Source: a virus. Taken from it: 26,150 bases of DNA. Of this stretch, positions 9,031 to 20,087 are shown one piece after another (position 1 is the stretch's first letter; the number at the start of each line of letters is the position of its first letter). The stretch is from positions 1-26,150 of the IMG/VR virus record IMGVR_UViG_3300006030_000094; one strand, given 5' to 3'. A program made the translations under genes and the position numbers. The notes beneath the pieces were generated by a model. It worked only from the letters and a program-made list of their open reading frames with translations. It had not been told where the DNA came from and made no database searches.

Positions 9031-9310
9031 AAGGACGGGCTCGAGTCGGCACGTGCCGGAGCGTATGCGGCGCGATACCAGCCCGCGTGGCCTGTGGCGC
9101 GCTACGGGCCCGCGTGAGCGGGTTTATCGGTCAGGCCATAGGTAGGTACAGGGTATAACCTTGGCTGGCCTGTGCGGGCTCTCCGTCGGTCTTAGAGACC
9201 ATCGATTCTAAGCCGTTTTTAGAGAGGGGGCCGGTAGGGTAGTGAGGGGTGCGCGTCCGGACGCCTGTGCGGCCTCTCCGTGGGTCTGGCGGCCATGCCG
9301 CGCGAGCGGC

Positions 9311-9363: not shown

Positions 9364-9597
9364 TCAGGTGGCGAGGCGCTCGCCCTCTGCTTCTATTCGG
9401 TCCAACGCGCCGTATATCTCCGCCCAGAGGATCGGCGTTAACCCGAACCTGCGATCCCCGTCCCACAGTTCACCGGCATCTAGCGCGCACGCTAGCGACC
9501 CGCTGAACCGACCTAGAATGACGGTCGCCTCGAAGTCGCCGCCCTCACTATGGGGTTCAACTTCCACGATCAACCCGTGACGCAGATGAATCCTCAT
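9364..9597 (-). CDS. hypothetical protein, 77 aa
   Basis: The start at 9597 (MRIHLRHGLIVEVEP) has an ideal GGAGG with a 7-nt gap and overlaps the stop of the preceding 59-aa gene as ATGA, so the two are translationally coupled. The protein looks like a short mixed alpha/beta domain: a beta-rich N-terminus (GLIVEVEPH, FEATVILGRF) and a helical C-terminus (ILWAEIYGALDRIEAEGER). I know no family. It is the last gene of a two-gene unit closed by a terminator. Confidence 0.75.
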   Translation of the reverse strand: MRIHLRHGLIVEVEPHSEGGDFEATVILGRFSGSLACALDAGELWDGDRRFGLTPILWAEIYGALDRIEAEGERLAT

Positions 9598-9773
9598 ACC
9601 GTCACCTCCGTCTCGCGGCAGTGGGCATTCCACTGGTCCGCGGCTTCGGCCATGCGGCGCAACTCCGCTACTGCGTTATCTCGGCCCGTCCGGGTCTCAC
9701 TGTTCTCGATAACGTGGACCAAGAAGGTCACGAGGCCTGCCCATGTCGGGGTTATATCAACCGTGCGATCCAT
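9594..9773 (-). CDS. small conserved phage protein, 59 aa
   Basis: A short gene starting MDRTVDITPTWAGLVTFLV and ending HCRETEVTV, with TGGAG 8 nt upstream and an ATGA overlap with the next gene. The pattern DITPTW-GL followed by ELRRMAEAADQWN resembles short proteins I remember from many prophages and metagenomic phages, all without a known function. Two helices are likely. It has its own promoter (9815-9843) and 5' stem-loop (9792-9808), and with the 77-aa gene forms a self-contained transcription unit between two identical terminators. Confidence 0.8.
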   Translation of the reverse strand: MDRTVDITPTWAGLVTFLVHVIENSETRTGRDNAVAELRRMAEAADQWNAHCRETEVTV

Positions 9774-9791
9774 TTGCTTTTCTCCAGTATG

Positions 9792-9843
9792 CGCGGCCCG
9801 TTGCCGCGACCCAGATACTGCGCGCGCGGCGCGCTGGCGTCAA
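9792..9843 (-). promoter_or_regulatory. promoter plus 5' stem-loop leader for the 59/77-aa unit
   Basis: TTGACG (9843-9838), 17 nt, CAGTAT (9820-9815). Six nt further the stem CGCGGC/GCCGCG with a 5-nt loop (9808-9792) begins, about where transcription should start, and is followed by CATACTGGAG, the ribosome binding site. The -10 is imperfect, but the layout repeats that of five other units in the window. Confidence 0.6.
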
Positions 9844-9851
9844 TGCCCGGG

Positions 9852-9880
9852 CAAAAGAAAGCCCCGCACAGGGCGGGGCT
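9852..9880 (-). terminator. intrinsic terminator after the Cys-rich gene
   Basis: Stem AGCCCCGC/GCGGGGCT followed on the minus strand by TTCTTTTG, 23 bp beyond the stop of the 240-aa gene. It is an exact 29-bp copy of the terminator at 9311-9339. Confidence 0.85.
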
Positions 9881-9902
9881 CATGGGGGCGGGGCGGGTCG
9901 GG

Positions 9903-10625
9903 TCAGGCGGCCACGCGTTGCCGCCAGCCCGGACCGTGATCGAGTATCGCGATGCCGAGGCTGCGGCGCCCATCTGCGCCGCTGCACGCGCGACACTGCG
10001 CGCAAGTCGCGACTTTGCCAGCCTCGGCACTGGCTGGACAAATCCGTTCAGTCGGCATCACGTAATCGTCACGGCGCACGCGGAATGTTCGCCAGCCCGC
10101 AGCGTGCGCGGCATCGGCTTCGGCGATGCTGTCCGCGCTGGCCATTACCAGCGCGCGCCATGCGGCCACGCGCGAGCCTTTCAGGCCTTGCCATGCATGG
10201 GTATACCCCGTGCGGCCCGCTGCGTCGCGCACGAAATTCCGCCAGACTGAAAGCGGGCCCGCGAGTGGATCACCATATGCGCCGAGGCGCACCATGCGGC
10301 CGCGCGCGTACGCGCGAGCCTGCGCCGGCGTCGCGCGCGGATACGCGCCGCGTTTGTACGCGTTAAAAACTGACAGTGGCGCACGCCACGTTGCGACATA
10401 GCACGTACGCTTGCCGGTAGCGGGATCGAAACGGTGCGGGCACGTGCCGCAGATAGACGCGTCGCGGCTATCTATTGCCGCGACGTGCGGCGGCACGTCT
10501 GCGCGCAGTATCCACGTCTGGATCATATCGCCAGTTTTCGGGTTGCTGCTGCTGTCGGTGGCGATGATCACAATAGGCGCGCCGTCCAGCGCGCTTGGAC
10601 CTTCCCATAGAATTATCCCGGCCAT
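9903..10625 (-). CDS. cysteine-rich phage protein of unknown function, 240 aa
   Basis: A 240-residue protein with seven cysteines in a metal-site-like pattern: CGTC (59-62), C75 in TCYVA, C196 in ERICPASAEAG, and CAQCRAC (208-214). Other landmarks are VRLGAYGDP (112-120) and GYTHAW (140-145). I recall a widespread phage family with the same order of motifs and no established function; it may be DUF7227, but I am not sure of that name. Binding of zinc or an iron-sulfur cluster is plausible. GGGAG lies about 8 nt before the ATG and a stem-loop leader (10646-10664) precedes it; a terminator follows. It is GC-rich like its island neighbours. Confidence 0.8.
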   Translation of the reverse strand: MAGIILWEGPSALDGAPIVIIATDSSSNPKTGDMIQTWILRADVPPHVAAIDSRDASICGTCPHRFDPATGKRTCYVATWRAPLSVFNAYKRGAYPRATPAQARAYARGRMVRLGAYGDPLAGPLSVWRNFVRDAAGRTGYTHAWQGLKGSRVAAWRALVMASADSIAEADAAHAAGWRTFRVRRDDYVMPTERICPASAEAGKVATCAQCRACSGADGRRSLGIAILDHGPGWRQRVAA

Positions 10626-10645
10626 GATATTTTCTCCCTGTATTT

Positions 10646-10664
10646 GGCCGCCACGTCGGCGGCC
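10646..10664 (-). promoter_or_regulatory. stem-loop leader before the 240-aa gene
   Basis: GGCCGCC/GGCGGCC with a 5-nt loop, then AAATACAGGGAG, the ribosome binding site. It is a near copy of the leader at 10917-10935 and includes the upstream TAAGGT, but no -35 hexamer is present, so it seems to be a duplicated leader without its own complete promoter. Confidence 0.6.
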
Positions 10665-10675
10665 ATGTGCGAACC

Positions 10676-10897
10676 TTAAGCCCTTGCGCGGCTTAAGATG
10701 ATTTCATCTGAAAGCGTTCCAGTATATTCGCGCCAGCCTATTTCCCGCCAGCATACCATCGAGGGGAAGCCGCTCACGGGGCGGCCTTTTCTTAGCGCGT
10801 TATACGCGCGAACGGCGCCTAAACGCGTGCAATATCCACGCGCGGTGGTAAACCCGTCGTCCAACGTAAGCCAGACCAAAAAAGTAAAATCATCCAT
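10676..10897 (-). CDS. hypothetical protein, 73 aa
   Basis: Starts MDDFTFLVWLTLDDGF at 10897, where GGGAG lies 7 nt upstream; longer in-frame starts would run back through the promoter and leader and are unlikely. Residues include CTRLGAVRAYNALRKGRP, probably a helix, then an aromatic segment CWREIGWREYTG. I recognise no family. It is transcribed from the promoter at 10944-10972, and the stop runs directly into the leader of the 240-aa gene, so the two may be co-transcribed. Confidence 0.7.
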   Translation of the reverse strand: MDDFTFLVWLTLDDGFTTARGYCTRLGAVRAYNALRKGRPVSGFPSMVCWREIGWREYTGTLSDEIILSRARA

Positions 10898-10916
10898 ATT
10901 GATTCTCCCTGTATTG

Positions 10917-10972
10917 GGCCGCCACATCGGCGGCCATGTGCGGACCTTATCTGGTATGCGTCCGGGCGTCAA
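10917..10972 (-). promoter_or_regulatory. promoter plus 5' stem-loop leader for the 73-aa gene
   Basis: TTGACG (10972-10967), 17 nt, TAAGGT (10949-10944), directly behind the previous stop codon. The stem GGCCGCC/GGCGGCC (10935-10917) starts 8 nt past the -10 and is followed by CAATACAGGGAG. The spacer holds GTCCGGGC on the plus strand, one base off the GTCCGGAC palindrome of sister promoters. Confidence 0.7.
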
Positions 10973-11176
10973 TTATAGAATTTCCTCCAGCTTCCCCACT
11001 TTCGCGCGTCCGTCGATGATCAATCGCGCGTCGCGGCCCGTCATGATTTCATGCGCGGCCGCTGCCGACAGGATGCGGACCACGTCCGCCTCTAATTCGC
11101 GCGCGAAGGTGAAAAGGGGGCGGCCGTCTAACTCTGCAACGCGATTTCCCGCGCGGGTGTTGATTTCGAAATTCAC
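10973..11176 (-). CDS. hypothetical protein, 67 aa
   Basis: A GTG start with GGAGG 8 nt upstream gives MNFEINTRAGNRVAELDGRPL. The first 40 residues look beta then helical (LFTFARELEADVVRILSAAA), followed by MTGRDARLIIDGRAKVGKLEEIL. I recognise no family. It is a single-gene unit with its own promoter and leader (11197-11249), immediately downstream of the DUF932 gene. Confidence 0.7.
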   Translation of the reverse strand: MNFEINTRAGNRVAELDGRPLFTFARELEADVVRILSAAAAHEIMTGRDARLIIDGRAKVGKLEEIL

Positions 11177-11196
11177 TTTTAGTTCCTCCAGTGTAT

Positions 11197-11249
11197 GCGC
11201 CCCAGTATCGGGGCGCGTTGATTATGCCAGGGCGTCCGGACGCCTTCAA
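11197..11249 (-). promoter_or_regulatory. promoter, operator-like palindrome and 5' stem-loop for the 67-aa gene
   Basis: TTGAAG (11249-11244), 17 nt, CATAAT (11226-11221). A perfect 14-bp palindrome GGCGTCCGGACGCC (11231-11244) fills most of the spacer, where a repressor would block RNA polymerase. The stem GCGCCCC/GGGGCGC with a 6-nt loop (11216-11197) begins 4 nt after the -10, then ATACACTGGAGG supplies the ribosome binding site. The -35 overlaps the stop of the DUF932 gene. Confidence 0.75.
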
Positions 11250-12295
11250 GCCGCGAGTAGCTTGCCGGCGATGCGCTCGAGCGCGACGCGTTCCGACTGG
11301 TGCTCGATCTCGCGCGCGGCTGCGGTAATGGCGGTGACGGCATCCCAGATCGTTTCAACCGGGCGGCCTTCCTCGAGAATATGCTGGTGCTCAAAACGCT
11401 TCGCGACGCGCGGCCCAATTAACCTTGGCAGGAAGTCCGCCGAGATTTTCCGGTTGCGCGCCTCATCAATGGCCAGCACTACGTTACGGTCTGACTCCCG
11501 AGCTATCGCGGCCATGCGTGGCAGAACCGCATCGACCCACCGCGCGCCCGCGTGCTGGGTGTGGCGGATCGCGATTTCGTGCACTTCTTCCGCGCCCCAG
11601 ACGATCCTGTTGCTGCACACGTAATCGAAAAGGAACGTCGTGATCCGCAGCGAAGCGCTACCGACTTCAGAATTGGACACGAAAAACCCGCGCGCAAGGC
11701 TTCCGGTGCGCCCGTCACGGCGGTTCGGCAGTTCGATGCGGCGCTCCTCGTCCGCAAGAAAAACGAACATGTCCCGATCACTTGCGAATAATGTCGTGTT
11801 CTTTTTCGTGATTTCCACGGCCTTGCCGAATTCCCCGGGGATTCGGAAGTCCCCGGTGCGCCCGTCTCCGACCCGGTCGATCAGGGCGTCGATCACGTCG
11901 ACGTTCAGAATGCGACCGTATTTTGGTCCGGTCAGGGCGTGAACCGCGTCGTCCGACGCGTACAGCCGCAGGTCTTCCGCAACCTCAGACGACTTCGTGA
12001 CAAGAATTTCTGACACGAGCCGGGCGGGCAGAGAGCGCAGGAACTCCGGCGGCGCGCCGACTTTTCCGGCCAACTGGCCAAAGGCCCAGTGCGTCAACTT
12101 GCGAGGGCGTAGGAAGGAATTGTGGACGACGACGTCGTCTCCGGAGTCGGCGACGTGCAGGTCCTGCAGACGGATGCTGCGATCCGCCCAGTCGCGATGC
12201 GAATCCATCGCGTCGCGCATTTCAGGCAGTGACAGGAAGCGCTCGTCGGCAGGACGATGGGCCCAGTTAGAGTGGCAAGCAGTGAGTGTGGTCAT
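11246..12295 (-). CDS. DUF932 (phage/plasmid-like) protein
   Basis: A 349-residue protein matching the DUF932 family found on plasmids and phages. Characteristic segments are LTHWAFGQLAGKVGAPPEFLRSLP (~67-90), the ALTGPKYGRILN turn, and ARGFFVSNSEVGSASLRIT followed by FLFDYVCSNRIVWG (~201-234), then a helical C-terminus. The biochemical role is unknown; family members often lie near replication and mobilisation genes. The start has GGAG 7 nt upstream. A stem-loop leader and a weak promoter (12314-12369) precede it. High GC and the island setting suggest horizontal acquisition. Confidence 0.85.
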   Translation of the reverse strand: MTTLTACHSNWAHRPADERFLSLPEMRDAMDSHRDWADRSIRLQDLHVADSGDDVVVHNSFLRPRKLTHWAFGQLAGKVGAPPEFLRSLPARLVSEILVTKSSEVAEDLRLYASDDAVHALTGPKYGRILNVDVIDALIDRVGDGRTGDFRIPGEFGKAVEITKKNTTLFASDRDMFVFLADEERRIELPNRRDGRTGSLARGFFVSNSEVGSASLRITTFLFDYVCSNRIVWGAEEVHEIAIRHTQHAGARWVDAVLPRMAAIARESDRNVVLAIDEARNRKISADFLPRLIGPRVAKRFEHQHILEEGRPVETIWDAVTAITAAAREIEHQSERVALERIAGKLLAA

Positions 12296-12313
12296 GTCTT
12301 ATCTCCTGTATTG

Positions 12314-12369
12314 GCCGGGGGACATCCCCGGCGTGTTCGAACTGTGGAATAAAAAATTTTATCTGTCAA
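12314..12369 (-). promoter_or_regulatory. possible promoter plus 5' stem-loop leader for the DUF932 gene
   Basis: TTGACA (12369-12364) is a perfect -35, but the hexamer 17 nt on is CACAGT (12346-12341), a poor -10. The stem GCCGGGG/CCCCGGC with a 5-nt loop (12332-12314) begins 8 nt later, followed by CAATACAGGAG. Judged by sequence alone the promoter is weak; it is listed because spacing and leader match the sister units. Confidence 0.45.
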
Positions 12370-12604
12370 CCCCGCCGATGATAAATTTTTCGGCGTTGGA
12401 CTTATCCAAGCCCGTGGCCCGCGTTGTCCACGTCCCGTCCACCAGTTCCCGGATTCGCCATGCCTGCACGATGTCGTATCGGCGATTCGGGCGCTGCACT
12501 TTCACGTTCCGGCCAAAAGCCCTGCGAGTACCGTCTTCACTTATCATGATTTCGGAAGAGTGATCGGCCACCGCGCTGGAGGCACGCCGTGTGGGTATTT
12601 TCAT
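12359..12604 (-). CDS. hypothetical basic protein, 81 aa
   Basis: Start MKIPTRRASSAVADHSS at 12604 with AAGGAG and a 6-nt gap. The middle GRNVKVQRPNRRYDIVQAWRIRELVDGTWTTRA looks like a small beta-sheet domain, followed by NAEKFIIGGVDR. I know no family. A strong stem-loop (12629-12652) precedes the ribosome binding site. The 3' end overlaps the -35 of the DUF932 promoter. Confidence 0.7.
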   Translation of the reverse strand: MKIPTRRASSAVADHSSEIMISEDGTRRAFGRNVKVQRPNRRYDIVQAWRIRELVDGTWTTRATGLDKSNAEKFIIGGVDR

Positions 12605-12628
12605 CTCGATCTCCTTTCTGCTTTCGAA

Positions 12629-12652
12629 CCCCGCACGGCGAACCGTGCGGGG
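12629..12652 (-). promoter_or_regulatory. strong stem-loop before the 81-aa gene
   Basis: CCCCGCACGG/CCGTGCGGGG with a 4-nt loop (TTCG on the minus strand), a 10-bp stem. It is followed by TTCGAAAGCAGAAAGGAG rather than a T-run, so it works better as a 5' leader or processing hairpin than as a terminator, though it also lies 7 bp after the stop of the previous gene and could do both. Confidence 0.7.
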
Positions 12653-12659
12653 CAACTGG

Positions 12660-12995
12660 TCAGGTTTGATTTTCCGGCTGTTTTGCAATCCATTCCTCAT
12701 GGCTGGGGTGGTCCGGGCTGAACTGACCCTTGACGACAGGAGCGGCTTTCCCGCTACGTGAAATGCACATCAACCCGACTCTTTCCGGCGCGAACCCGTG
12801 CTCCCAGCAAACCGAACCAAAATCGTCTACCCATGTTTTGGAACGATCGCTGGACGTTAAGTAAACTTTCACCACAACCGTTTTGGTCTCGACGGCACTG
12901 CGGACCTTGCGGTAGAGCTTGGTCAGGTCGTCCCCGCGAACCCATTCGCCACCGTAGATCCCGCACGTGACCACCAGATACTCAGTGTTTTCCAC
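12660..12995 (-). CDS. hypothetical protein, 111 aa
   Basis: The start chosen is the GTG at 12995 (MENTEYLVVTCGIYGG), which has AAAGGA 6 nt upstream; an earlier ATG would lie next to the promoter. Residues 1-60 alternate beta and helix (YRKVRSAVETKTVVVKVYL), with WVDDFGSVCWEHGFAPERVGLMC and a charged tail. I recognise no family. It is driven by the best promoter of the island (13061-13089). Confidence 0.7.
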   Translation of the reverse strand: MENTEYLVVTCGIYGGEWVRGDDLTKLYRKVRSAVETKTVVVKVYLTSSDRSKTWVDDFGSVCWEHGFAPERVGLMCISRSGKAAPVVKGQFSPDHPSHEEWIAKQPENQT

Positions 12996-13033
12996 TGGAT
13001 TTCCTTTCTGCTTTCTGTTTTGACAAAGAACGA

Positions 13034-13089
13034 TTGATCGGAATTTCGACCAACAACCCGATCTTATCACATCGGAGTCCGGACGTCAA
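13034..13089 (-). promoter_or_regulatory. promoter, GTCCGGAC site and 5' stem-loop for the 111-aa gene
   Basis: TTGACG (13089-13084), 17 nt, TAAGAT (13066-13061), a strong sigma70 match. GTCCGGAC occupies 13077-13084, overlapping the end of the -35. A stem TTGGTCG/CGATCAA (one G-U pair, 6-nt loop, 13053-13034) begins 7 nt after the -10. About 40 nt later the ribosome binding site AGAAAGGA precedes the GTG start. Confidence 0.75.
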
Positions 13090-13196
13090 CCCCTGTCCCG
13101 ACGGGCTAGTGCGGACAGTGTCAGCATGAACAGGACGCGGAGCGCGATCCGAAAAAACGGTTTCGCCTCTTCAAGGTGTTTTCGATTGATCTTCAT
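13086..13196 (-). CDS. 36-aa single-span membrane peptide
   Basis: A short frame MKINRKHLEEAKPFF with a following hydrophobic run RIALRVLFMLTLSALA and a basic end RRDRG. The ATG is preceded by AAGGGAG, and the leader CGAAAACCAGAAAGGGAG resembles that of the 81-aa gene, which supports real translation. One transmembrane helix with a positive C-terminus is likely. It lies between the VRR-NUC gene and the promoter of the 111-aa gene. Small phage membrane peptides can be toxins, holin partners or exclusion factors; nothing here decides. Confidence 0.55.
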   Translation of the reverse strand: MKINRKHLEEAKPFFRIALRVLFMLTLSALARRDRG

Positions 13197-13238
13197 TTTC
13201 TCCCTTTCTGGTTTTCGAACCGGCGCAGGATGCAGCGC

Positions 13239-13634
13239 TCAGGCAAGCCCTGTCAACGCGTCCCGGATGACGTGCCACGGCGCGCGTCGAAGCGGCCAGC
13301 ATCCCACCGGCTCAACGCGCAAGCCCTGCAACTGCAATTCCACCGCCTGCGCGGCGGAGTAAAGGCGAATTTCATCGAGGTTCAGGCAGGCCACGAGAAT
13401 GCCTGCCGGGCAACCGAGCGCAGCGTGACGGGCGTGGAATGAGACTTGATGTGCAGACAGTGCGACCTTCATCCCGGACCGCACCACCTTCAGTTCAAGT
13501 GTGATGAAAAAACCCTCTTCAAAGGCAATCAAAAGGTCCGGCAAACCAAGCGTTGCCCGGCTTTCAAGGCGGGTGAATTCGCAGCGCTCAAGGTTGTCGC
13601 GCAGGCGTCGATAGAATTGTGCCTCAGTGGTCAT
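13239..13634 (-). CDS. VRR-NUC type PD-(D/E)XK nuclease
   Basis: A 131-residue protein with the catalytic layout of VRR-NUC nucleases: E4, GLPD with D33, LELK with E47 and K49, and Q63 in SAHQVSF. The length matches stand-alone phage and plasmid members, which cleave branched or structured DNA and may resolve recombination or packaging intermediates. It overlaps the end of the small-terminase gene by 11 nt, so the two are co-expressed; a link between branch resolution and packaging is plausible. The family call is confident; the substrate is inferred. Confidence 0.85.
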   Translation of the reverse strand: MTTEAQFYRRLRDNLERCEFTRLESRATLGLPDLLIAFEEGFFITLELKVVRSGMKVALSAHQVSFHARHAALGCPAGILVACLNLDEIRLYSAAQAVELQLQGLRVEPVGCWPLRRAPWHVIRDALTGLA

Positions 13635-14295
13635 TCTGGGGCTCTACAGGCGCTTCAAGCACAGAGTCCGGGTCGAAGTCCGGCTCCGCCGCAATCTCGC
13701 GTTCTACGGACTCCTGAACGGCAATAGGGTCCACGTCGATGATCTCCGGCGAAGCACCGCCCACGAACATTGCTTTGATCTCTCGCAGCTTCTGGGCAAC
13801 TTCCTCGCGGCTCATGCTGTCGATGGTGCCAACCCGGATTTCCTTTCGATCCACGTAAATGGTGCCCAACGCCTGCCCGCGCCGGTATTCAGCAGACACT
13901 GCCGCGCCGTATGCTCCGGCCTGTAGCGCCGCGTCCCGGATTCTCTGCAGGTCGCGCATATGCCGCTCAAACGTCGTGCCGTACTTTTCGTTCAACTCCC
14001 GCCGGTACTCTTGGATCGCTGCCACAACGTGGGGACTGCGGGCAGGGTCCGTCAGGTCACGGCCCGTGGACTTTGCAATGTGCTCCGAATACCCCGCCCG
14101 GATGGCCGCCTCGCGGACGCTGATCGCGCCGTCGTTCGCGACAAACTCCTGCACGAACCGCCGCTCCCGGTCGGTCAACTGCTTCAGGGGAATCCGCTTC
14201 GAAACAGGCGCGGACAGCCGTTGTTCGACGATTCTCCGGCTCGAGGTCCTCTGGTTTACCGCAAGCCCAGTGTGGTTTTCTTTTTTCTTAGGCAC
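13624..14295 (-). CDS. terS: terminase small subunit
   Basis: A 223-residue protein of the Terminase_2 type that recognises phage DNA and directs the large subunit. TDRERRFVQEFV (41-52) and SVREAAIRAGYSEHIAK (59-75) form the characteristic N-terminal helix-turn-helix, followed by a central helical oligomerisation region (100-145) and an acidic C-terminus (EREIAAEPDFDPDSVLEAP). The start is GTG with GGAGG 6 nt upstream. It is separated from terL by the accessory island, which is unusual. Upstream lies the AT-rich repeat spacer. Confidence 0.85.
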   Translation of the reverse strand: MPKKKENHTGLAVNQRTSSRRIVEQRLSAPVSKRIPLKQLTDRERRFVQEFVANDGAISVREAAIRAGYSEHIAKSTGRDLTDPARSPHVVAAIQEYRRELNEKYGTTFERHMRDLQRIRDAALQAGAYGAAVSAEYRRGQALGTIYVDRKEIRVGTIDSMSREEVAQKLREIKAMFVGGASPEIIDVDPIAVQESVEREIAAEPDFDPDSVLEAPVEPQNDH

Positions 14296-14386
14296 TCCAA
14301 CCCTCCGCTTCCTTTAGCTGATTTTCTATGAAAAACAAAAACATAAAAATAAAAAATGATCCGCGCGCGCACCCCGTATATTTCTA

Positions 14387-14480
14387 TAACACCTTACACC
14401 TTACTCCTGCACCATATTGGTGTGTGATGTACTAAACCCTTGAAAACACTATACTCTTACACCCTTACACCACTTACACC
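14387..14480. repeat. CTTACACC iteron-like repeats
   Basis: Exact CTTACACC copies at 14393-14400, 14456-14463, 14464-14471 and 14473-14480, with a partial TAACACC at 14387-14393. Three copies are packed at 8-9-bp spacing. They lie in the 250-bp gene-free spacer upstream of terS, together with a CACCATATTGGTG dyad near 14410. They look like binding sites for an initiator or activator. Confidence 0.7.
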
Positions 14481-14487
14481 TATTTTC

Positions 14488-14507
14488 AAAAAAAAATATT
14501 TTTTTTT
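14488..14507. repeat. perfect 20-bp A/T palindrome
   Basis: Nine A, then TA, then nine T, adjacent to the CTTACACC cluster. It could act as a bidirectional terminator closing the early operon that ends at 14549, or as an easily melted element of an origin. The A-tract would also bend DNA. Confidence 0.65.
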
Positions 14508-14548
14508 CACTCGTGGGTAAAACTCCCTAGTGGTTTCGTGTAAACGCG

Positions 14549-14737
14549 TTAGTCGTCCTCGATTTCGTCTCCCATCTCCTCCCCCAGCGACCCCGCCAAC
14601 GCCTCGCCCTCGATCCATGAGACAAGAAACTCGCCCTCTGCATCTCGCCTGAAGGCCTCTTTCACCGCCTCAGTCTCGCTTTCCGCCCTCACCCTGACCC
14701 TCAGCGCCTTCTCCATCACCACCACGAACGTCTTCAT
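14549..14737 (-). CDS. hypothetical acidic protein, 62 aa
   Basis: Start MKTFVVVMEKALRVRVRAES at 14737 with GGAGG 8 nt upstream; the ATG overlaps the stop of the previous gene as ATGA. The order is a beta hairpin, then a helix (ETEAVKEAFRRDAEGEF), then a very acidic tail (EEMGDEIEDD). It resembles small phage proteins that mimic a single alpha/beta unit. It is the last gene of the early operon. No function is known to me. Confidence 0.75.
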   Translation of the reverse strand: MKTFVVVMEKALRVRVRAESETEAVKEAFRRDAEGEFLVSWIEGEALAGSLGEEMGDEIEDD

Positions 14738-14946
14738 GCCCGTGCCCTCCACTTCTGCGGCTGCTGGACCTTGGGCCATGATTCACCCTCGTTGACCCGT
14801 CTGACGGCCTCCTTGACCTTTTCGACGTACCCTTGCCTCACCCACACCTCCAGCCGAATCATGCCCTCCGCAACGCGACGTGCGCGCTCAGCCTGCTTGT
14901 TCAGCCGCTTCTGTGCCTTTCTTTCTTCAGTCATCACTTTCTGCAC
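14734..14946 (-). CDS. small basic coiled-coil protein, 70 aa
   Basis: The chosen start is the GTG at 14946 (MQKVMTEERKAQKRLNK) with GGAG 6 nt upstream; an alternative is the ATG at 14934. Almost all residues are helix formers with a KQAERARRVAEGMIRLEVWV and KVKEAVRRVNEG pattern, suggesting one or two long helices, perhaps dimeric. It overlaps the end of the previous gene by 20 nt and the start of the next by 4 nt. I recognise no family. Confidence 0.65.
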   Translation of the reverse strand: MQKVMTEERKAQKRLNKQAERARRVAEGMIRLEVWVRQGYVEKVKEAVRRVNEGESWPKVQQPQKWRARA

Positions 14947-15187
14947 TTGTCTCTCCTTTCTTGTCCTTAACCCACAGTCTCCCCGGCCCTTGGGCCGTGA
15001 ACCGTTGATCTTGATGCAGTCTCCATCCCTCCTCGTCCGGCGGACGTTTTGCGACGCAAAACAGCATCCCCTTGGCCACGTAAACCGTGACCGAGGGGGC
15101 TGTAGCCTTGCCCGCGCGAACGATGGCCCTTGGATCGACGTGAGGGTCGATGCCAAGGGTATTCGCGACAACCTTGTAGGCCGTCAT
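14927..15187 (-). CDS. hypothetical protein, 86 aa
   Basis: Starts MTAYKVVANTLGIDPHVDPR directly after the stop of the 139-aa gene. The ribosome binding site is only GGTGAT, so translation probably relies on coupling to the upstream gene. Segment SVTVYVAKGMLFCVAKRP looks like a beta hairpin; the tail is charged. Reading the frame further upstream would run through the neighbour in another frame and gives an unlikely Cys/Arg-rich sequence. No family is recognised. Confidence 0.65.
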   Translation of the reverse strand: MTAYKVVANTLGIDPHVDPRAIVRAGKATAPSVTVYVAKGMLFCVAKRPPDEEGWRLHQDQRFTAQGPGRLWVKDKKGETSAESDD

Positions 15188-15188
15188 A

Positions 15189-15608
15189 TCACCAGTCTGG
15201 GGATAGGTTGGCCGCGAAGCGGGGGTTTGTGAACCCAAGTTGCGTGGCCCATGGTTCTGGGATGAAGTACCGATTGCGGTGGTCATAGACCTCGTTCGTT
15301 GTCGCGCGGACCACGAACGTATGCACGGACGCTCTCTTGCGGTCGTTCGCGTTCGGCGTGTTGGGATTCCCGCGCCACTCGCGCCACGGGTCAGTCTCGG
15401 CGCTGTCCACCACCTTGAACACCGCGTTCCGGGGCAGCAGGCCGGCATGCAGCCGCGCACATTCGCGTGCCTCTGCGTCGGCCTCCTTGCGGGTCGGGAA
15501 GCGATACCCCTGCGCGGCGGTTCCCCCTGTCACCCGCGCAAGCATGGGGCGGTAGATCGTATCAAAAAAGTACTTCACGTCCTTCTGAAAGGGGGTCAAT
15601 GCGATCAT
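15189..15608 (-). CDS. hypothetical protein, 139 aa
   Basis: GGAG lies 7 nt before the ATG, which overlaps the stop of the YkgJ-like gene as ATGA. The N-terminal helix (PFQKDVKYFFDTIYRPMLARV) is followed by a basic helical stretch (RKEADAEARECARLHAGLL) and a C-terminal region rich in Asn/Arg/Pro (NEVYDHRNRYFIPEPWATQLG). No catalytic motif stands out and I recognise no family. Confidence 0.7.
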   Translation of the reverse strand: MIALTPFQKDVKYFFDTIYRPMLARVTGGTAAQGYRFPTRKEADAEARECARLHAGLLPRNAVFKVVDSAETDPWREWRGNPNTPNANDRKRASVHTFVVRATTNEVYDHRNRYFIPEPWATQLGFTNPRFAANLSPDW

Positions 15609-16153
15609 ATCTGGTCTCCTTCGTTGGTTATTTCAGCGTCCACGGGTTTGTCTTCAGAGGGGTCTGGTGCAGCCTCGGGGTTGTCATCAAGTCCTTTCCA
15701 AAATGGAAACAATTTCAGGGCGGCGTACTTCTCCATCCATTTCATGAATTTGATGGTGCCGAGGTAGTTGTGGCCGCGATCAATGCGATAGGAAACATTG
15801 GCGTTGTGTCGAAGGTGGAAATGGATAATCCATGACAGCACCTCGACGGACAGCTTCTCCCCGCACTCGACCATCTCTAGGTAGGGTTCTTTGATCTCCT
15901 CCGAGTACTTCCATGTGAAGATAACGTTGGCTTCACTGGGTTTCATCCATTCAGGGATTGCCGCCTCTGTTCTCCACGCACAGACGTACTTCTGGCACGG
16001 GTCCTCGGGCCGTGTCTCGTAAATACTGCACCCGCCAGTCTTCATGAAATGGCACTTCCTTCCCGGGTACATCGGATAGGTCTGGATGGTGGAATACAGC
16101 CAGCCCTCGCAGCACCGCGTGCATCCCCCGCACTCCCTGATCGTAGGTCTCAT
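15605..16153 (-). CDS. YkgJ-like cysteine-cluster protein
   Basis: A 182-residue protein whose first 60 residues hold the CxxCxxCC-type cluster: C8, C11, C14, C15, then C34, C42, C53 and C58, with the segment YETRPEDPCQKYVCAW. This is the pattern of the YkgJ family, annotated as zinc- or iron-chelating and possibly binding an Fe-S cluster. The C-terminal ~120 residues (VIFTWKYSEE..., WIIHFHLRHNANVSYRID) are beta/helical, ending in an acidic tail. Such proteins occur in phages, but their role there is not known. It overlaps both neighbours by 4 nt, so it belongs to the early operon. Confidence 0.8.
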   Translation of the reverse strand: MRPTIRECGGCTRCCEGWLYSTIQTYPMYPGRKCHFMKTGGCSIYETRPEDPCQKYVCAWRTEAAIPEWMKPSEANVIFTWKYSEEIKEPYLEMVECGEKLSVEVLSWIIHFHLRHNANVSYRIDRGHNYLGTIKFMKWMEKYAALKLFPFWKGLDDNPEAAPDPSEDKPVDAEITNEGDQI

Positions 16154-16458
16154 TCGTTTGTTTCTCCTTCTTCGTTAATTACTTTGGTCCACAACTTCCT
16201 GACGTGTTCCCAAGCCTTACGGTCCATGTCATGCCCGAGTGGATGAAAAGAATCTCCCCGTTTGCGAGACTCATCGTCCCGCACAAACTCTTCCTCAACA
16301 TCGCGCTGGATGATGGCCTTGGTGTTTTCGCCGAGTTCATTCCACGAGCCAATCAAAAGATTGCAAAAGTCGGACACAGCATAGGTCATGCGCCCCATGT
16401 AGTACCGTGTCGCACCGACCCAGAGAGTGAGCTCATGTTGTGGTGACATTTTGTTCAT
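16150..16458 (-). CDS. conserved phage protein, 102 aa
   Basis: MNKMSPQHELTLWVGATRYYMGRMTYAVSDFCNLLI is a segment I remember from several phage genomes, always without a known function. The rest is helical: a central NTKAIIQRDVEEEFVRDD and a C-terminal HPLGHDMDRKAWEHVRKLW. ATGA overlaps join it to both neighbours. Probably a small helical regulator or enzyme accessory; this is speculative. Confidence 0.75.
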   Translation of the reverse strand: MNKMSPQHELTLWVGATRYYMGRMTYAVSDFCNLLIGSWNELGENTKAIIQRDVEEEFVRDDESRKRGDSFHPLGHDMDRKAWEHVRKLWTKVINEEGETNE

Positions 16459-16664
16459 TGGTCATTTCTCGCACGTATTGCATCGGCAATGTCGTGCCGG
16501 TAGATCGCTATCTCTGCAATCTTCGCACAGGCTTCGCGCTCGGCAAGTACAGCACTCTGTTTGACGAGTCGGGCGAAGCGTTCCAGCGCTGGTCCGTGCA
16601 GCTCGGCCAGTGACATGCCATAGCCTGCCTCCTGCGCCATGCGGACAATATCGTCTTGAGTCAT
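16455..16664 (-). CDS. small conserved phage protein, 69 aa
   Basis: Start MTQDDIVRMAQEAGYGMSLAE at 16664 with GGAGGAG just upstream. The pattern (DDI-RMA-EAG, then LERFARLV, then AEREACAKIAE) matches a small helical protein very common in phages of proteobacteria, with no assigned function. The longer upstream frame runs back through the repeat gene as a Met-Ala/Pro-Ala artefact and was dropped. ATGA overlap joins it to the next gene. Confidence 0.8.
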   Translation of the reverse strand: MTQDDIVRMAQEAGYGMSLAELHGPALERFARLVKQSAVLAEREACAKIAEIAIYRHDIADAIRARNDQ

Positions 16665-16684
16665 TCTCTCCTCCTCAAAATCTC

Positions 16685-17191
<507 letters not shown>

Positions 17192-17192
<1 letters not shown>

Positions 17193-17491
17193 CACACTCC
17201 CCAGTCGTCCGACACAAGCACCGAGAAAATTTCAGACTGAGCCGGAATCTCGACCCGTGTCTTCATCTTCCGAAGTGTGACGTTGTCGTCTTTTGGATTT
17301 GCGATCACACCGTCGAATCCAATCGACTCCCACCTGAAAACCCATACCGCTCTGTCCAAAAAGATGCGATTGCCCTCGCGCGTCACATCGCCCGCAAAGA
17401 TCCAACCGCGATCCACAACGACAACCGCGCGTGTGCCCGCAGCACGAACAACCGGCGCATACTCAATACCATCAATAATCACATTAGCCAT
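17192..17491 (-). CDS. conserved phage protein, 99 aa
   Basis: Start MANVIIDGIEYAPVVRAAG at 17491 with GGGGGAG 8 nt upstream; the longer frame runs back through the methyltransferase gene. Segments RAVVVVDRGWIFAGDVTREG, RIFLDRAVWVFRWESIGFDGVIANPK and VEIPAQSEIFSVLVSDDWG form a beta-rich single domain that I recall from many phage genomes as a protein of unknown function. It shares one base with the next start. Confidence 0.8.
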
Positions 17492-17493
17492 TT

Positions 17494-17928
17494 TTACTTC
17501 TCCCCCTTGGTTACAAATGTGACGAGCATGCTTGGGAACGGTGCGGAATTCTTGACCCCACCGAACTTCAAACGCCCGCGCAGGAACTCTACTTTGCCGT
17601 GCGGAAAACACAGCTCGTGAAACCACTTGGTGTCCGTCCGCGCAGGTAACAGACAGACGACAAGACTGGCCGTGGTCCGTGAAGCGTGAAGCGCTTTGTC
17701 GATCCACAGCCCAATCTCCCTGCCATAAGGCGGATTCATCCACACCCGCCCTGACCATTCCTGCGACAATCCGTCCTGTTCCTTGGTGAAGTAATGCGCG
17801 CATTTCGCATTCTCAGGAGTAGCGCACACGTCCAAAGTAAAGTGATGCACGGCGTCCAGCCTGTCGAATAAATCCTGTGGCGTCGCCCACTCAGGTGTAG
17901 CGCTAGTGAATAGCCCGGTGTTGATCAT
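17494..17928 (-). CDS. phage DNA N6-adenine methyltransferase
   Basis: A 144-residue protein of the phage Dam family. It begins WATPQDLFDRLDAVHHFTLDVCAT, holds the catalytic NPPY (65-68, in VWMNPPYGREIGLWIDKA) and ends with VEFLRGRLKFGG and APFPSMLVTFV, all typical of that family. It would transfer a methyl group from S-adenosylmethionine to adenine, probably masking phage DNA from host restriction or marking it for replication or packaging. It overlaps thyX by 4 nt. The recognition sequence cannot be read from the protein. Confidence 0.9.
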   Translation of the reverse strand: MINTGLFTSATPEWATPQDLFDRLDAVHHFTLDVCATPENAKCAHYFTKEQDGLSQEWSGRVWMNPPYGREIGLWIDKALHASRTTASLVVCLLPARTDTKWFHELCFPHGKVEFLRGRLKFGGVKNSAPFPSMLVTFVTKGEK

Positions 17929-18581
17929 CTTTCCTCGATTTCTTTCTTAACTAGACTCGGCATCAACTCTATAATAATCTTCGCGCACTCTAATGCCACC
18001 TGCCGGTGCTCTTTCTGGGTAGAAGAGTCGGTGCGAACATCAAGGTAGTGAATCCACGAACGGACGCTACCGTTCATATAGAGCACGCTCTCCATCATCC
18101 CCTCGGGCAGCAGGGCCCGTGCGACTTCTTTTGCAATGCCGTTTTCCCTCGCCCACTTATACCCGTCAAGTGCTGCTTTTATGATTTCATTCTGGTACGC
18201 ATCCCAGCGTTGCTGTAACTCCGGGCCGACGCCTTCGATAGAATTCTGTCGGTTCTTAGGATCGTGCAGCCGCGCTTCCCGGAAAACATACCCAAGCTCT
18301 GTCGGATCGGCGTAGCGTTGCGAGAATTCCTGAAAAGAAAAACTACGGTGCCGTAACATCTGCCGGGCGATGTCCCGGGTGGTTTTGACCTCCATACAAA
18401 CATTCACCAGCTCGAACGGCGACCAATGCTTGTGATCAATCAAATACCGCAACAACTTGTCAGCCGTCGCGTGATTGTCTTGGTTTTGCGGGTTACTCAC
18501 TCGCGCGCAGTAAGCAATCAACTGCTCCGGGGCCATGATTCCCAGAGGCGTTGTGGTGTACGAGATTAGTCTTACGTGCAT
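17925..18581 (-). CDS. thyX: flavin-dependent thymidylate synthase
   Basis: A 218-residue ThyX, which makes dTMP from dUMP using methylenetetrahydrofolate, FAD and NADPH and so supplies thymidine for phage DNA. The signature RHR-x7-S-x-R is intact at 77-89 (RHRSFSFQEFSQR), preceded by HWSPFELVNVCMEVK and followed by RSWIHYLDVRTD, the substrate-binding region. Start chosen at 18581 (MHVRLISYTT), with AGGGGG 9 nt upstream. It is linked to the methyltransferase by an ATGA overlap in the early operon, as expected for nucleotide metabolism genes. Confidence 0.95.
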   Translation of the reverse strand: MHVRLISYTTTPLGIMAPEQLIAYCARVSNPQNQDNHATADKLLRYLIDHKHWSPFELVNVCMEVKTTRDIARQMLRHRSFSFQEFSQRYADPTELGYVFREARLHDPKNRQNSIEGVGPELQQRWDAYQNEIIKAALDGYKWARENGIAKEVARALLPEGMMESVLYMNGSVRSWIHYLDVRTDSSTQKEHRQVALECAKIIIELMPSLVKKEIEER

Positions 18582-18582
18582 G

Positions 18583-18807
18583 CTATTTATCCCCCTCACG
18601 TAAGGCGGCATAGGCGCGCTTGACCACTGGAGCCATCATGTTCCCCTGCTCCGTTTCAAATTCGATGTGCTCAGCGGTCCAGCATTCTTCTGGATGGTAC
18701 TCGTCCAACAACTCCTTCAAGGATTCTCTGAGCAATTTGTTCTGGTTCATTAGATCAATGTGATCTTGCAGCAAACAATCCGCAATCTTCTCAATCATGT
18801 CGTTCAT
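18583..18807 (-). CDS. small helical protein, 74 aa
   Basis: Start MNDMIEKIADCLLQDHIDLMNQ at 18807 with AGGAG 8 nt upstream. It consists of an N-terminal coiled-coil-like helix (NKLLRESLKELLDEYH), an acidic centre and a helical tail (VVKRAYAALREGDK). I recognise no family. It lies directly before thyX in the early operon. Confidence 0.7.
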   Translation of the reverse strand: MNDMIEKIADCLLQDHIDLMNQNKLLRESLKELLDEYHPEECWTAEHIEFETEQGNMMAPVVKRAYAALREGDK

Positions 18808-18818
18808 GCCCACAACTC

Positions 18819-19025
18819 CTATTCCCATTCTTTTTCTAGCAGTCCATTCTTATCCATCACCGCGATCTCTATATCCACCGCTACTGCATACACGGCGTCA
18901 AGTAATAAAGGGTCGGTAATTTTCATATTTCCATTTATAATCTCGATCATTTCTTCATGCGTTAAACCCAAGCTCCCTCCTTTGCAGGACATCGCCTTAA
19001 TTAAGGTTTTGGTTTTCATTTTCAT
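18819..19025 (-). CDS. hypothetical protein, 68 aa
   Basis: Starts MKMKTKTLIKAMSCKGGSLG through an ATGA overlap; no good ribosome binding site is present, so coupling to the upstream gene is likely. Segments LTHEEMIEIINGNMK and LLLDAVYAVAVDIEIAVMD suggest a compact helical protein. No family is recognised. Base composition is more AT-rich than the island genes. Confidence 0.65.
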   Translation of the reverse strand: MKMKTKTLIKAMSCKGGSLGLTHEEMIEIINGNMKITDPLLLDAVYAVAVDIEIAVMDKNGLLEKEWE

Positions 19026-19246
19026 GATATTTCAACACCGTAGATGATGCCGTTAAACACTCGTTCACTGTTCTTGTACAGTGTTTTGTTGTTGGCCTCA
19101 TGGTACAGGGTCATGATGATGAACTTCTCATCTTCCGTGAACTTAGTTTTATGTAGGAATGTATAGGGAAAGTTCATAGTGCACTTGATACCATCATCGA
19201 TGGTCGTCACTCGGATGTATGGGACCTTTGCATATTGCTCGCTCAT
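19022..19246 (-). CDS. hypothetical protein, 74 aa
   Basis: Start MSEQYAKVPYIRVTTIDDGI at 19246 with GGAG 7 nt upstream. Beta-rich N-terminus (PYIRVTTIDDGIKCTMNFPYTFL), then helical KFTEDEKFIIMTLYHEANN, then NGIIYGVEIS. I recognise no family. It ends in an ATGA overlap with the 68-aa gene. Confidence 0.7.
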   Translation of the reverse strand: MSEQYAKVPYIRVTTIDDGIKCTMNFPYTFLHKTKFTEDEKFIIMTLYHEANNKTLYKNSERVFNGIIYGVEIS

Positions 19247-19266
19247 GATGGCACTCCTTCTACTGT

Positions 19267-19539
19267 TCATGCCCACAGCTCCTCCTGTTCGTAATACCCC
19301 GCCATACGGTCCGCTTCATATTCCAGAAGGTCCCGCGCGTCCTGTTCAATCTCTTCGATCTCCGCGTCCGTCAGGTCGTAAACCCTCTCTCCGCCCATGA
19401 ACACGTCGAAGTCGAGGAAGCCCTGCTCCTCGGGATACCACGTGTCCGGGTGGCCCGAGGACTGCCCGGGACGATCCGGGCAGTAGGCAGTGACGACAAC
19501 GGTGGCGGGCTCGCCGCGCAGTGTGATGTCAAACTCCAT
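19267..19539 (-). CDS. hypothetical acidic protein, 90 aa
   Basis: Start MEFDITLRGEPATVVVTAYC at 19539 with GGAGG 6 nt upstream. The first half is a beta-sheet (FLDFDVFMGGERV), the second an acidic helix (LTDAEIEEIEQDARDLLEYEADR). I recall similar short phage proteins of mixed beta and helix with unknown function. It overlaps the previous gene by 11 nt. Confidence 0.75.
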   Translation of the reverse strand: MEFDITLRGEPATVVVTAYCPDRPGQSSGHPDTWYPEEQGFLDFDVFMGGERVYDLTDAEIEEIEQDARDLLEYEADRMAGYYEQEELWA

Positions 19540-19837
19540 GACGCACCTCCTCACGCTTCCACAGGCTCTCAGCAGAGCGCCGTGCATGCACGGCAAACCC
19601 GGCGCAAATGGTTTTCCCAAGCTCCATGAGCCCTGATTTCTTGTCCATGTCCAACTCTGGGTCGTACAGGTCCGCGACCATGTTGACGAGGTCTACGGGA
19701 GATGTGTTGAGCATCTCGATCCTGCCCTCGCGTTCTGTCCAGTCGGAGATGATGTAGGCCTGCTCCTGACGATGGAGCTTGTCCCATGAGCCTCGGCCCT
19801 CGGCCAGTGCGCCGCGTGCAACAGTTTCCCAGTTCAT
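19529..19837 (-). CDS. hypothetical helical protein, 102 aa
   Basis: Begins MNWETVARGALAEGRGSWDK via an ATGA overlap, with GAGGTG just upstream. It contains HRQEQAYIISDWTEREGRIEM and VDLVNMVADLYDPELD, and ends with helices (SAESLWKREEVRHGV). No motif decides a function. Likely co-translated with its neighbours in the early operon. Confidence 0.7.
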   Translation of the reverse strand: MNWETVARGALAEGRGSWDKLHRQEQAYIISDWTEREGRIEMLNTSPVDLVNMVADLYDPELDMDKKSGLMELGKTICAGFAVHARRSAESLWKREEVRHGV

Positions 19838-20016
19838 GAGCGCACCTCGTCGAAGTCACGGTTGAAGCCGACGAGGTCGAGCAGCTGGTCCCACTGAGCC
19901 TGTTTGTGCCACTCGGCAAGGCCCTTGAACCAGCGGACATTGGCTTCGCTTGGCAGGAAGTGCCAAGCGTCGTGGAACAGCGTCACGTAGTGACGGTCAT
20001 CGAATGTGTATCGCAT
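19834..20016 (-). CDS. small protein at the head of the early operon, 60 aa
   Basis: MRYTFDDRHYVTLFHDAWHFL with ACAGGAG 7 nt upstream. It is aromatic- and His-rich and mostly helical (RWFKGLAEWHKQAQWDQLLDLVG). As the first gene after the promoter at 20058-20087 it would be expressed earliest and most strongly; such leading genes are often host-takeover or anti-defence factors, which is only a positional inference. No family is recognised. Confidence 0.7.
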   Translation of the reverse strand: MRYTFDDRHYVTLFHDAWHFLPSEANVRWFKGLAEWHKQAQWDQLLDLVGFNRDFDEVRS

Positions 20017-20034
20017 GATCTTCTCCTGTATTCA

Positions 20035-20087
20035 CACGCTCAAACAGCGTGGGAGAGAGTCTACGTCCGGACTCTATCCCACGTCAA
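20035..20087 (-). promoter_or_regulatory. promoter, GTCCGGAC site and 5' stem-loop of the early operon
   Basis: TTGACG (20087-20082), 18 nt, TAGACT (20063-20058). GTCCGGAC (20065-20072) lies in the spacer next to the -10. The stem CACGCT/AGCGTG with a 5-nt loop (20051-20035) starts 6 nt after the -10, followed by TGAATACAGGAG, the ribosome binding site. It drives the tightly overlapped genes from 20016 to about 14549. Confidence 0.7.

Follow-up and report, generated by a model that had tools for sequence, protein, structure and literature searches.

Short transcription units of an uncultivated phage and its relatives are predicted to open with a 5′-terminal stem-loop, probably a shield against host RNA decay

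The DNA analysed here is a 26,150-base IMG/VR virus record (IMGVR_UViG_3300006030_000094; the whole stretch is called the window), whose recognisable genes all lie on the minus strand and in which seven genes are led by the same arrangement of a promoter, a hairpin and a Shine-Dalgarno (SD) ribosome site. Many short transcripts of this phage and of its relatives are predicted to open with a stable hairpin, which is probably a cap-like shield against host RNA decay. The explanation that we favour, with a probability of roughly 0.6, is a 5′-terminal stem-loop of the ompA/papA/T7 gene 10 type that would block the host enzymes RppH and RNase E and that is used over many units; stabilisation and the enzymes concerned are what we infer from the arrangement.

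Throughout the analysis transcript starts are predicted, as the 7th nucleotide (nt) after the −10 element, which is the usual sigma70 start, and promoters were scored with −35/−10 matrices of approximate E. coli frequencies entered by hand. When the window leaders were folded from this position, the stem started at +1, +2 or +3 in six units. A promoter with a hairpin starting 4–9 nt after its −10 was counted four times on the minus strand and not once on the plus strand, while 200 dinucleotide shuffles gave a mean of 0.42 and a maximum of 3 coincidences of the same type; a stricter setting left 3 observed against 0.14 in shuffles. Weak promoters, such as the one with CACAGT at 12341-12346, fall under the thresholds of this count.

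All seven units lie on the minus strand, their hairpins being read from the sequence and by folding. Unit 1 (9771-9843) has TTGACG at 9838-9843, the −10 CAGTAT at 9815-9820 and a predicted +1 at 9808; the fold from this start begins in the stem of the hairpin CGCGGC-aacgg-GCCGCG (9792-9808), after which come the SD ATACTGGAG (9782-9790) and the ATG at 9773 of a 59-amino-acid protein with a PHROG match to phrog_22670. A search of viral contigs found no homologs of this protein (9594-9773), and therefore its leader has no orthologs for comparison. Unit 2 (10623-10678) has a weak −35, the −10 TAAGGT at 10673-10678, a predicted +1 at 10666, the hairpin TGGCCGCC-gacgt-GGCGGCCA (10645-10665), the SD ATACAGGGAG (10634-10643) and the ATG at 10625 of a 240-amino-acid phrog_2554 protein, and its orthologous leaders in contigs L002-L005 keep the hairpin. 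Unit 3 (10895-10972), which is one of the four coincidences that no shuffle equalled, has TTGACG at 10967-10972, the −10 TAAGGT at 10944-10949, a predicted +1 at 10937, the hairpin GGCCGCC-gatgt-GGCGGCC (10917-10935), the SD ATACAGGGAG (10905-10914) and an ATG at 10897. The leaders of units 2 and 3 (10625-10678 and 10895-10949) are near-identical from CGCACATGGCCGCC through ATACAGGGAG and stand before two unrelated genes, a near-copy that we read as a duplication of the leader inside the phage.

Unit 4 (11174-11249) has TTGAAG at 11244-11249 and a TG-extended −10, CATAAT, at 11221-11226; its predicted +1 at 11214 falls inside the first pairs of the hairpin GCGCCCC-gatact-GGGGCGC (11197-11216), and the SD ATACACTGGAGG (11185-11196) leads to the GTG at 11176 of a 67-amino-acid protein, whose ortholog in contig L082 has the same stem with a different loop. 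Unit 5 (12293-12369), with TTGACA at 12364-12369, CACAGT at 12341-12346 and a predicted +1 at 12334, carries the hairpin GCCGGGG-atgtc-CCCCGGC (12314-12332) and the SD ATACAGGAG (12303-12311) before the ATG at 12295 of a DUF932 protein (Pfam). Unit 6 (12993-13089) has TTGACG at 13084-13089, the extended −10 TAAGAT at 13061-13066, a predicted +1 at 13054 and a weaker stem of 8 pairs with G-U pairing, GTTGGTCG-aaattc-CGATCAAT (13033-13054); its SD is AGAAAGGA, with AGAAAGGAAA in place of ATACAGGAG, and its start codon is the GTG at 12995. Unit 7 (20014-20087) has TTGACG at 20082-20087, the −10 TAGACT at 20058-20063, a predicted +1 at 20051, the hairpin CACGCT-gtttg-AGCGTG (20035-20051) and the SD ATACAGGAG (20023-20031) before the ATG at 20016 of a 60-amino-acid protein. 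Its leader is identical in the near-identical contigs L237-L239, and in L241-L245 the stem of a related gene reads CACGCC-atccc-GGCGTG instead. Six of these units had been listed, with TTGACG promoters, by an earlier sequence-only reading. All six were found in the sequence with the shared layout, the list being incomplete only by unit 2, and TTGACG holds for four of them, the others having TTGAAG (at 11249) and TTGACA (at 12369). The constant ribosome site that had been claimed for five of the six is likewise present, as exact ATACAGGAG in two (at 12311 and 20031) and as the variants ATACAGGGAG, ATACTGGAG and ATACACTGGAGG once each.

The same layout was found in comparison contigs chosen as relatives of four window proteins (terminase relatives, DUF932-gene relatives and more distant contigs), which are partial metagenomic contigs with duplicates removed by exact flanks only. 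A search that asked for a hairpin, then an ATACAGG-type site, then a start codon, and in which promoters were not a criterion, gave 53 distinct modules, and a sigma70-like promoter score of at least 8 was reached by 81% of them against 10.6% of shuffled sequences. In 33 of the 48 modules that reach a promoter score of 6 the stem begins 6–9 nt after the −10, with a mode of 7–8 nt, so that on predicted starts the expectation of transcripts beginning with the hairpin is borne out here as it is in the window folds. The reverse search, starting from promoters with no ribosome-site condition, showed a sharp peak of strong stems 5–10 nt after a sigma70-like −10: 54 against a background of 9.7 in the terminase relatives (5.6-fold), 48 against 5.7 in the DUF932-gene relatives (8.4-fold) and 26 against 8.0 in the more distant contigs (3.2-fold), an excess whose Poisson values overstate certainty because related sequences are not independent. 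By the same measure 200 kb of E. coli K-12 had no strong stem after a −10 (1.5 expected), and control phages (N4, Caulobacter phage S2B and four others) had one against 1.8 expected, which is no excess.

The position of the hairpin follows the promoter rather than the ribosome site. Where −10 and SD are 40–50 nt apart, the hairpin starts 4–11 nt after the −10 in 9 of 13 cases and at 3 and 12 in two more, while the gap between hairpin and SD is scattered over 7–24 nt; in leaders of at least 60 nt hairpin positions scatter and few are at the start, and therefore the signal belongs to short leaders. This bears on a translation-side explanation, at which the hairpin would insulate the ribosome site or provide a ribosome standby site, its 5′ position being a by-product of short leaders. 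Such a module would profit from the fact that short leaders place the hairpin a few nucleotides before the SD, and expression rises when the T7 gene 10 stem-loop is placed ahead of an SD (PMC6146998). However, an insulator would track the SD, whereas it is the distance to the −10 that stays constant in the 40–50-nt leaders; moreover, although the SD never lies within the 5′ stem in the window units, its predicted accessibility in the folds is mixed (0.08–0.81 unpaired), pairing with the coding sequence being responsible. We therefore consider this explanation unlikely. A hairpin anchored to the transcript start fits 5′-end protection, and the comparison with ompA that had been drawn from the sequence alone is apt for the same reason.

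The structure is kept while the letters of the stem change. The clearest case is the family of the gene at 16079 of phage DSL-LC04 (L249), where all 6 members, the others having 72–76% protein identity to this gene, carry a perfect stem at the predicted start, with stems that include GCGGGA/TCCCGC, GCAGCGGCGC/GCGCCGCTGC, GCCGGGCA/TGCCCGGC, CCGAGCC/GGCTCGG and GCGGGGC/GCCCCGC. Over all hairpin-led genes the 5′ hairpin is retained in 76 of 121 distinct promoter-bearing ortholog leaders, 29 of them with divergent stems, and orthologs of hairpin-less genes have one in 63 of 456 (14%). For the DUF932 gene the count is 20 of 38 distinct promoter-bearing ortholog leaders, and unselected folding of 60-nt leaders, a supportive but blunt measure, gave these a mean z of −1.43 against about −0.5 for other well-sampled genes. 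Selection on structure, as had been proposed, shows in the sequences of these homologous leaders, and the promoters, the placement of the hairpins and their structural conservation can be read from the sequence itself.

Among the 48 distinct hairpins the stem is mostly of 5–7 base pairs (bp; up to 10), the loop of 3–8 nt and the mean energy −11.0 kcal/mol, and no common loop motif was found beyond a slight bias towards A/T in the first two nucleotides of the loop. This weighs on the idea that the hairpin together with ATACAGGAG is an RNA operator, read by a phage or host RNA-binding protein that switches translation, as MS2 coat protein and T4 gp43 do. A recurrent element beside a constant SD within one genome would suit such an operator, and T4 gp43 does bind a hairpin in front of its own start codon (PMC3014915). 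Yet the stems differ from unit to unit and the loops vary in both length and sequence, so that conserved letters were not found, whereas the top 10 bases are identical between the T4 and RB69 gp43 hairpins (PMC3014915). The constant part is the SD, and even this is not obligatory, as AGAAAGG-type SDs also accompany hairpins (15 of 48). We regard an RNA operator as highly unlikely, and the suggestion of the sequence-only reading that the hairpin is a regulator site finds no support as regards a site with a conserved loop.

A hairpin locked to the promoter could also act at the level of transcription, where the nascent RNA from +1 to +20 would fold to speed promoter escape, to prevent R-loops or backtracking, or to mark an antitermination complex. 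Known antitermination elements of the put/nut type are sequence-specific, whereas no conserved sequence was found in the present hairpins, and such a role is highly unlikely. The hairpin is not an attenuator, because no U-tract follows it. An intrinsic terminator or attenuator was ruled out, as the stem runs into an ATAC(A/T)GG-type site in six units, unit 6 having TCGTTC there. Finally, the perfect inverted repeats near starts might be elements of DNA, either repressor operators or promoters of a virion RNA polymerase of the N4 type, since N4 promoters are hairpins. This appears extremely improbable: within one genome every promoter has a different repeat, which stands at the predicted start, after a sigma70 −10, and not upstream of that start, the control set including 50 kb of N4 gave no such signal, and the palindrome that is conserved in sequence is GTCCGGAC, separate from the hairpin.

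This 8-base palindrome has four copies in the window against 0.47 expected, and no shuffle reaches four. Three of them lie in promoters, at 11234-11241 (in the spacer of unit 4), 13077-13084 (unit 6) and 20065-20072 (unit 7), and the fourth is at 9255-9262; a near-copy, GCCCGGAC on the minus strand, is found in the promoter of unit 3 (10959-10967). Related contigs L004 and L005/L082 (L005 and L082 being one contig), whose promoters carry the palindrome as well, have four occurrences each of TTGACGnCCGGAC. Being conserved in sequence, unlike the stems, GTCCGGAC is the better candidate for a shared operator, and within the promoters it is likely the DNA site of a phage regulator, which would define a regulon and time its genes.

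How would a 5′-end shield operate? The short, separately promoted phage genes would give transcripts opening with a stem-loop of about 5–10 bp that lies 0–3 nt from the predicted +1 and is separated by a short spacer from a strong ribosome site. The stem would keep the 5′ triphosphate out of reach of RppH, the host pyrophosphohydrolase, and of the 5′-sensing pocket of RNase E, by which the shielded short leaders (35–59 nt) would remain intact and translated in infection, and it may additionally prevent the ribosome site from pairing elsewhere. If all that counts is a stable stem, this would be why each gene has a stem sequence of its own; different stems would also avoid direct repeats able to recombine. 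The timing of expression would probably be set separately, by GTCCGGAC as a DNA-level operator within the promoters. Both RppH and RNase E in its 5′-sensing mode depend on a 5′ end that is single-stranded, which accounts for the stabilisation of ompA, papA and similar mRNAs by 5′ structure (PMC3997798). Purified B. subtilis RppH requires at least two unpaired nucleotides (PMC3997798), and stems at 0–2 nt from the end fit with this. Moreover, the T7 gene 10 stem-loop raised reporter output 1.5–3 fold in C. necator, with mRNA abundance also up (PMC6146998). Perhaps the hairpin is even a family-wide mark of self, a structural 5′ cap that would spare selected phage transcripts while host 5′-end-dependent decay, possibly sped up in infection, clears host mRNAs, the stems evolving freely since only pairing is recognised; this we hold to be decidedly unlikely.

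Several observations weigh against a 5′-end shield. The starts are predicted only, with the promoter matrix of E. coli, and in unit 4 the predicted start is 2 nt inside the stem. Gene-start promoters in the relatives are mostly without a strong 5′ hairpin (440 without, 63 with), and for this reason the hairpin cannot be called a general rule. The benefit of a 5′ shield depends on the host, since in E. coli no more than about 10% of mRNAs were affected by RppH (PMC3997798). The position-by-position covariation signal is weak, since stems of such rapid turnover cannot be aligned, and position-based ortholog tests were therefore used in place of leader alignment. In the only alignable set, the phrog_2554 leaders, all seven pairs are kept with one compensatory change, and 84 of 500 shuffles scored as high, which is not significant alone; in alignments of diverged ortholog leaders, paired double changes were only slightly more frequent than in slid controls. 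Both conditions that the sequence-only reading had set for its own refutation nevertheless speak for that reading, in so far as sequence analysis can address them: the predicted starts coincide with the stem base, and homologous leaders keep hairpins on divergent stems, with a column-wise signal that is weak.

As regards the ribosome site, a scan of all viruses gave a stem at the start in 10 of 61 leaders with ATACAGGAGA (0.9 expected) and in 7 of 75 with an ordinary SD (1.0 expected), many of the matches of these scans being AT-rich or not before a gene. ATACAGGAGA is only partly a universal mark of the hairpin, since an ordinary SD gives an excess too, and the SD variant is a habit of the lineage and not the essence of the layout. 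The densest set of leaders that we saw is in contig L233 (3191-6125), where four separate leaders of promoter, hairpin and ATACAGGAGAATGAAA have stems of 7–10 bp. In L064 and L065 (virus records 2974574029 and 2974540528; 146–147 kb), which belong to a different phage lineage, 5′ hairpins also follow sigma70-like promoters, several of them with an identical GCCGGGGA/TCCCCGGC stem plus a ribosome site of the AAAGGTAAA type, an independent-looking use of the arrangement. A hairpin with ATACAGGAG and no recognisable promoter at the right distance was found at 593 in L190 and at 7130 in L206; these may be processed operon junctions or have a different promoter type. Immediately before the start codon at 33187 on the minus strand of DSL-LC04 lies, between two genes, a strong intercistronic hairpin, CGCCGGGG/CCCCGGCG, with no promoter before it.

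Among the recognised genes of the window are those for the large and small terminase subunits, portal, a GroES-like protein, ThyX, endonuclease VII and the DUF932 protein, together with many small unknowns. By its large terminase the nearest named genome is phage DSL-LC04 (OR003939; 78% identity), a metagenome-assembled phage of the proposed ‘Dishuiviridae’ (PMC10611076), followed by a seawater phage and then by Pelagibacter phages HTVC027P (60%) and HTVC023P (55%); a nucleotide search of the hairpin-unit region against named phages gave no match. The DUF932 gene led by unit 5 (11246-12295) has 243 matches in virus contigs but hardly any among 84,980 species genomes of bacteria and archaea, where relatives were found in three contigs of metagenome-assembled genomes only, which was uninformative for assigning a host.

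A few individual genes are known to carry stem-loops at the 5′ end, and here the same device extends over many transcription units of many uncultivated phages. As the stems have no sequence in common, comparing them is a natural way to test which distance to the start, stem length and loop a 5′ stabiliser needs, and the leaders are a ready set of compact promoter-hairpin-SD elements for expression work. The device may be common and overlooked, because searches for RNA families by sequence miss it: the curated Rfam covariance models gave no match to the window at gathering score, and a relaxed threshold gave chance-level matches only. Single examples of the device are well known, whereas no description was found in the open-access literature of a 5′-hairpin leader that recurs through many transcription units in a group of phages.

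With regard to known systems, leaders of a similar kind are found at 16079 and 17123 of DSL-LC04, and HTVC027P was in a control set without an excess of 5′ hairpins. T7 has one well-known leader, behind a promoter of its own polymerase. The present units resemble this T7 gene 10 leader in having a hairpin upstream of a strong ribosome site (PMC6146998) and differ from it in that their promoters are host sigma70-like and their stems change from gene to gene. With the T4 gene 43 operator they share a hairpin upstream of a phage ribosome site, but the T4/RB69 operator is sequence-specific and protein-bound (PMC3014915), whereas neither loops nor stems are conserved here. The likeness extends to E. 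coli ompA and papA, whose 5′-terminal stem-loops are given as mRNA stabilisers in the work cited in PMC3997798 (Emory 1992, Bouvet & Belasco 1992, Bricker & Belasco 1999). There, as in the phage units, a stable stem stands at the 5′ end of the transcript upstream of the SD and it is structure that matters, not sequence; on predicted starts the phage stems also lie within a few nucleotides of the 5′ end, and it is their structure that is conserved (6 of 6 orthologs differ in stem, and 29 pairs have divergent stems). While ompA and papA are single host genes, the phage leaders are compact and, with unrelated stems, spread over several units and many phages.

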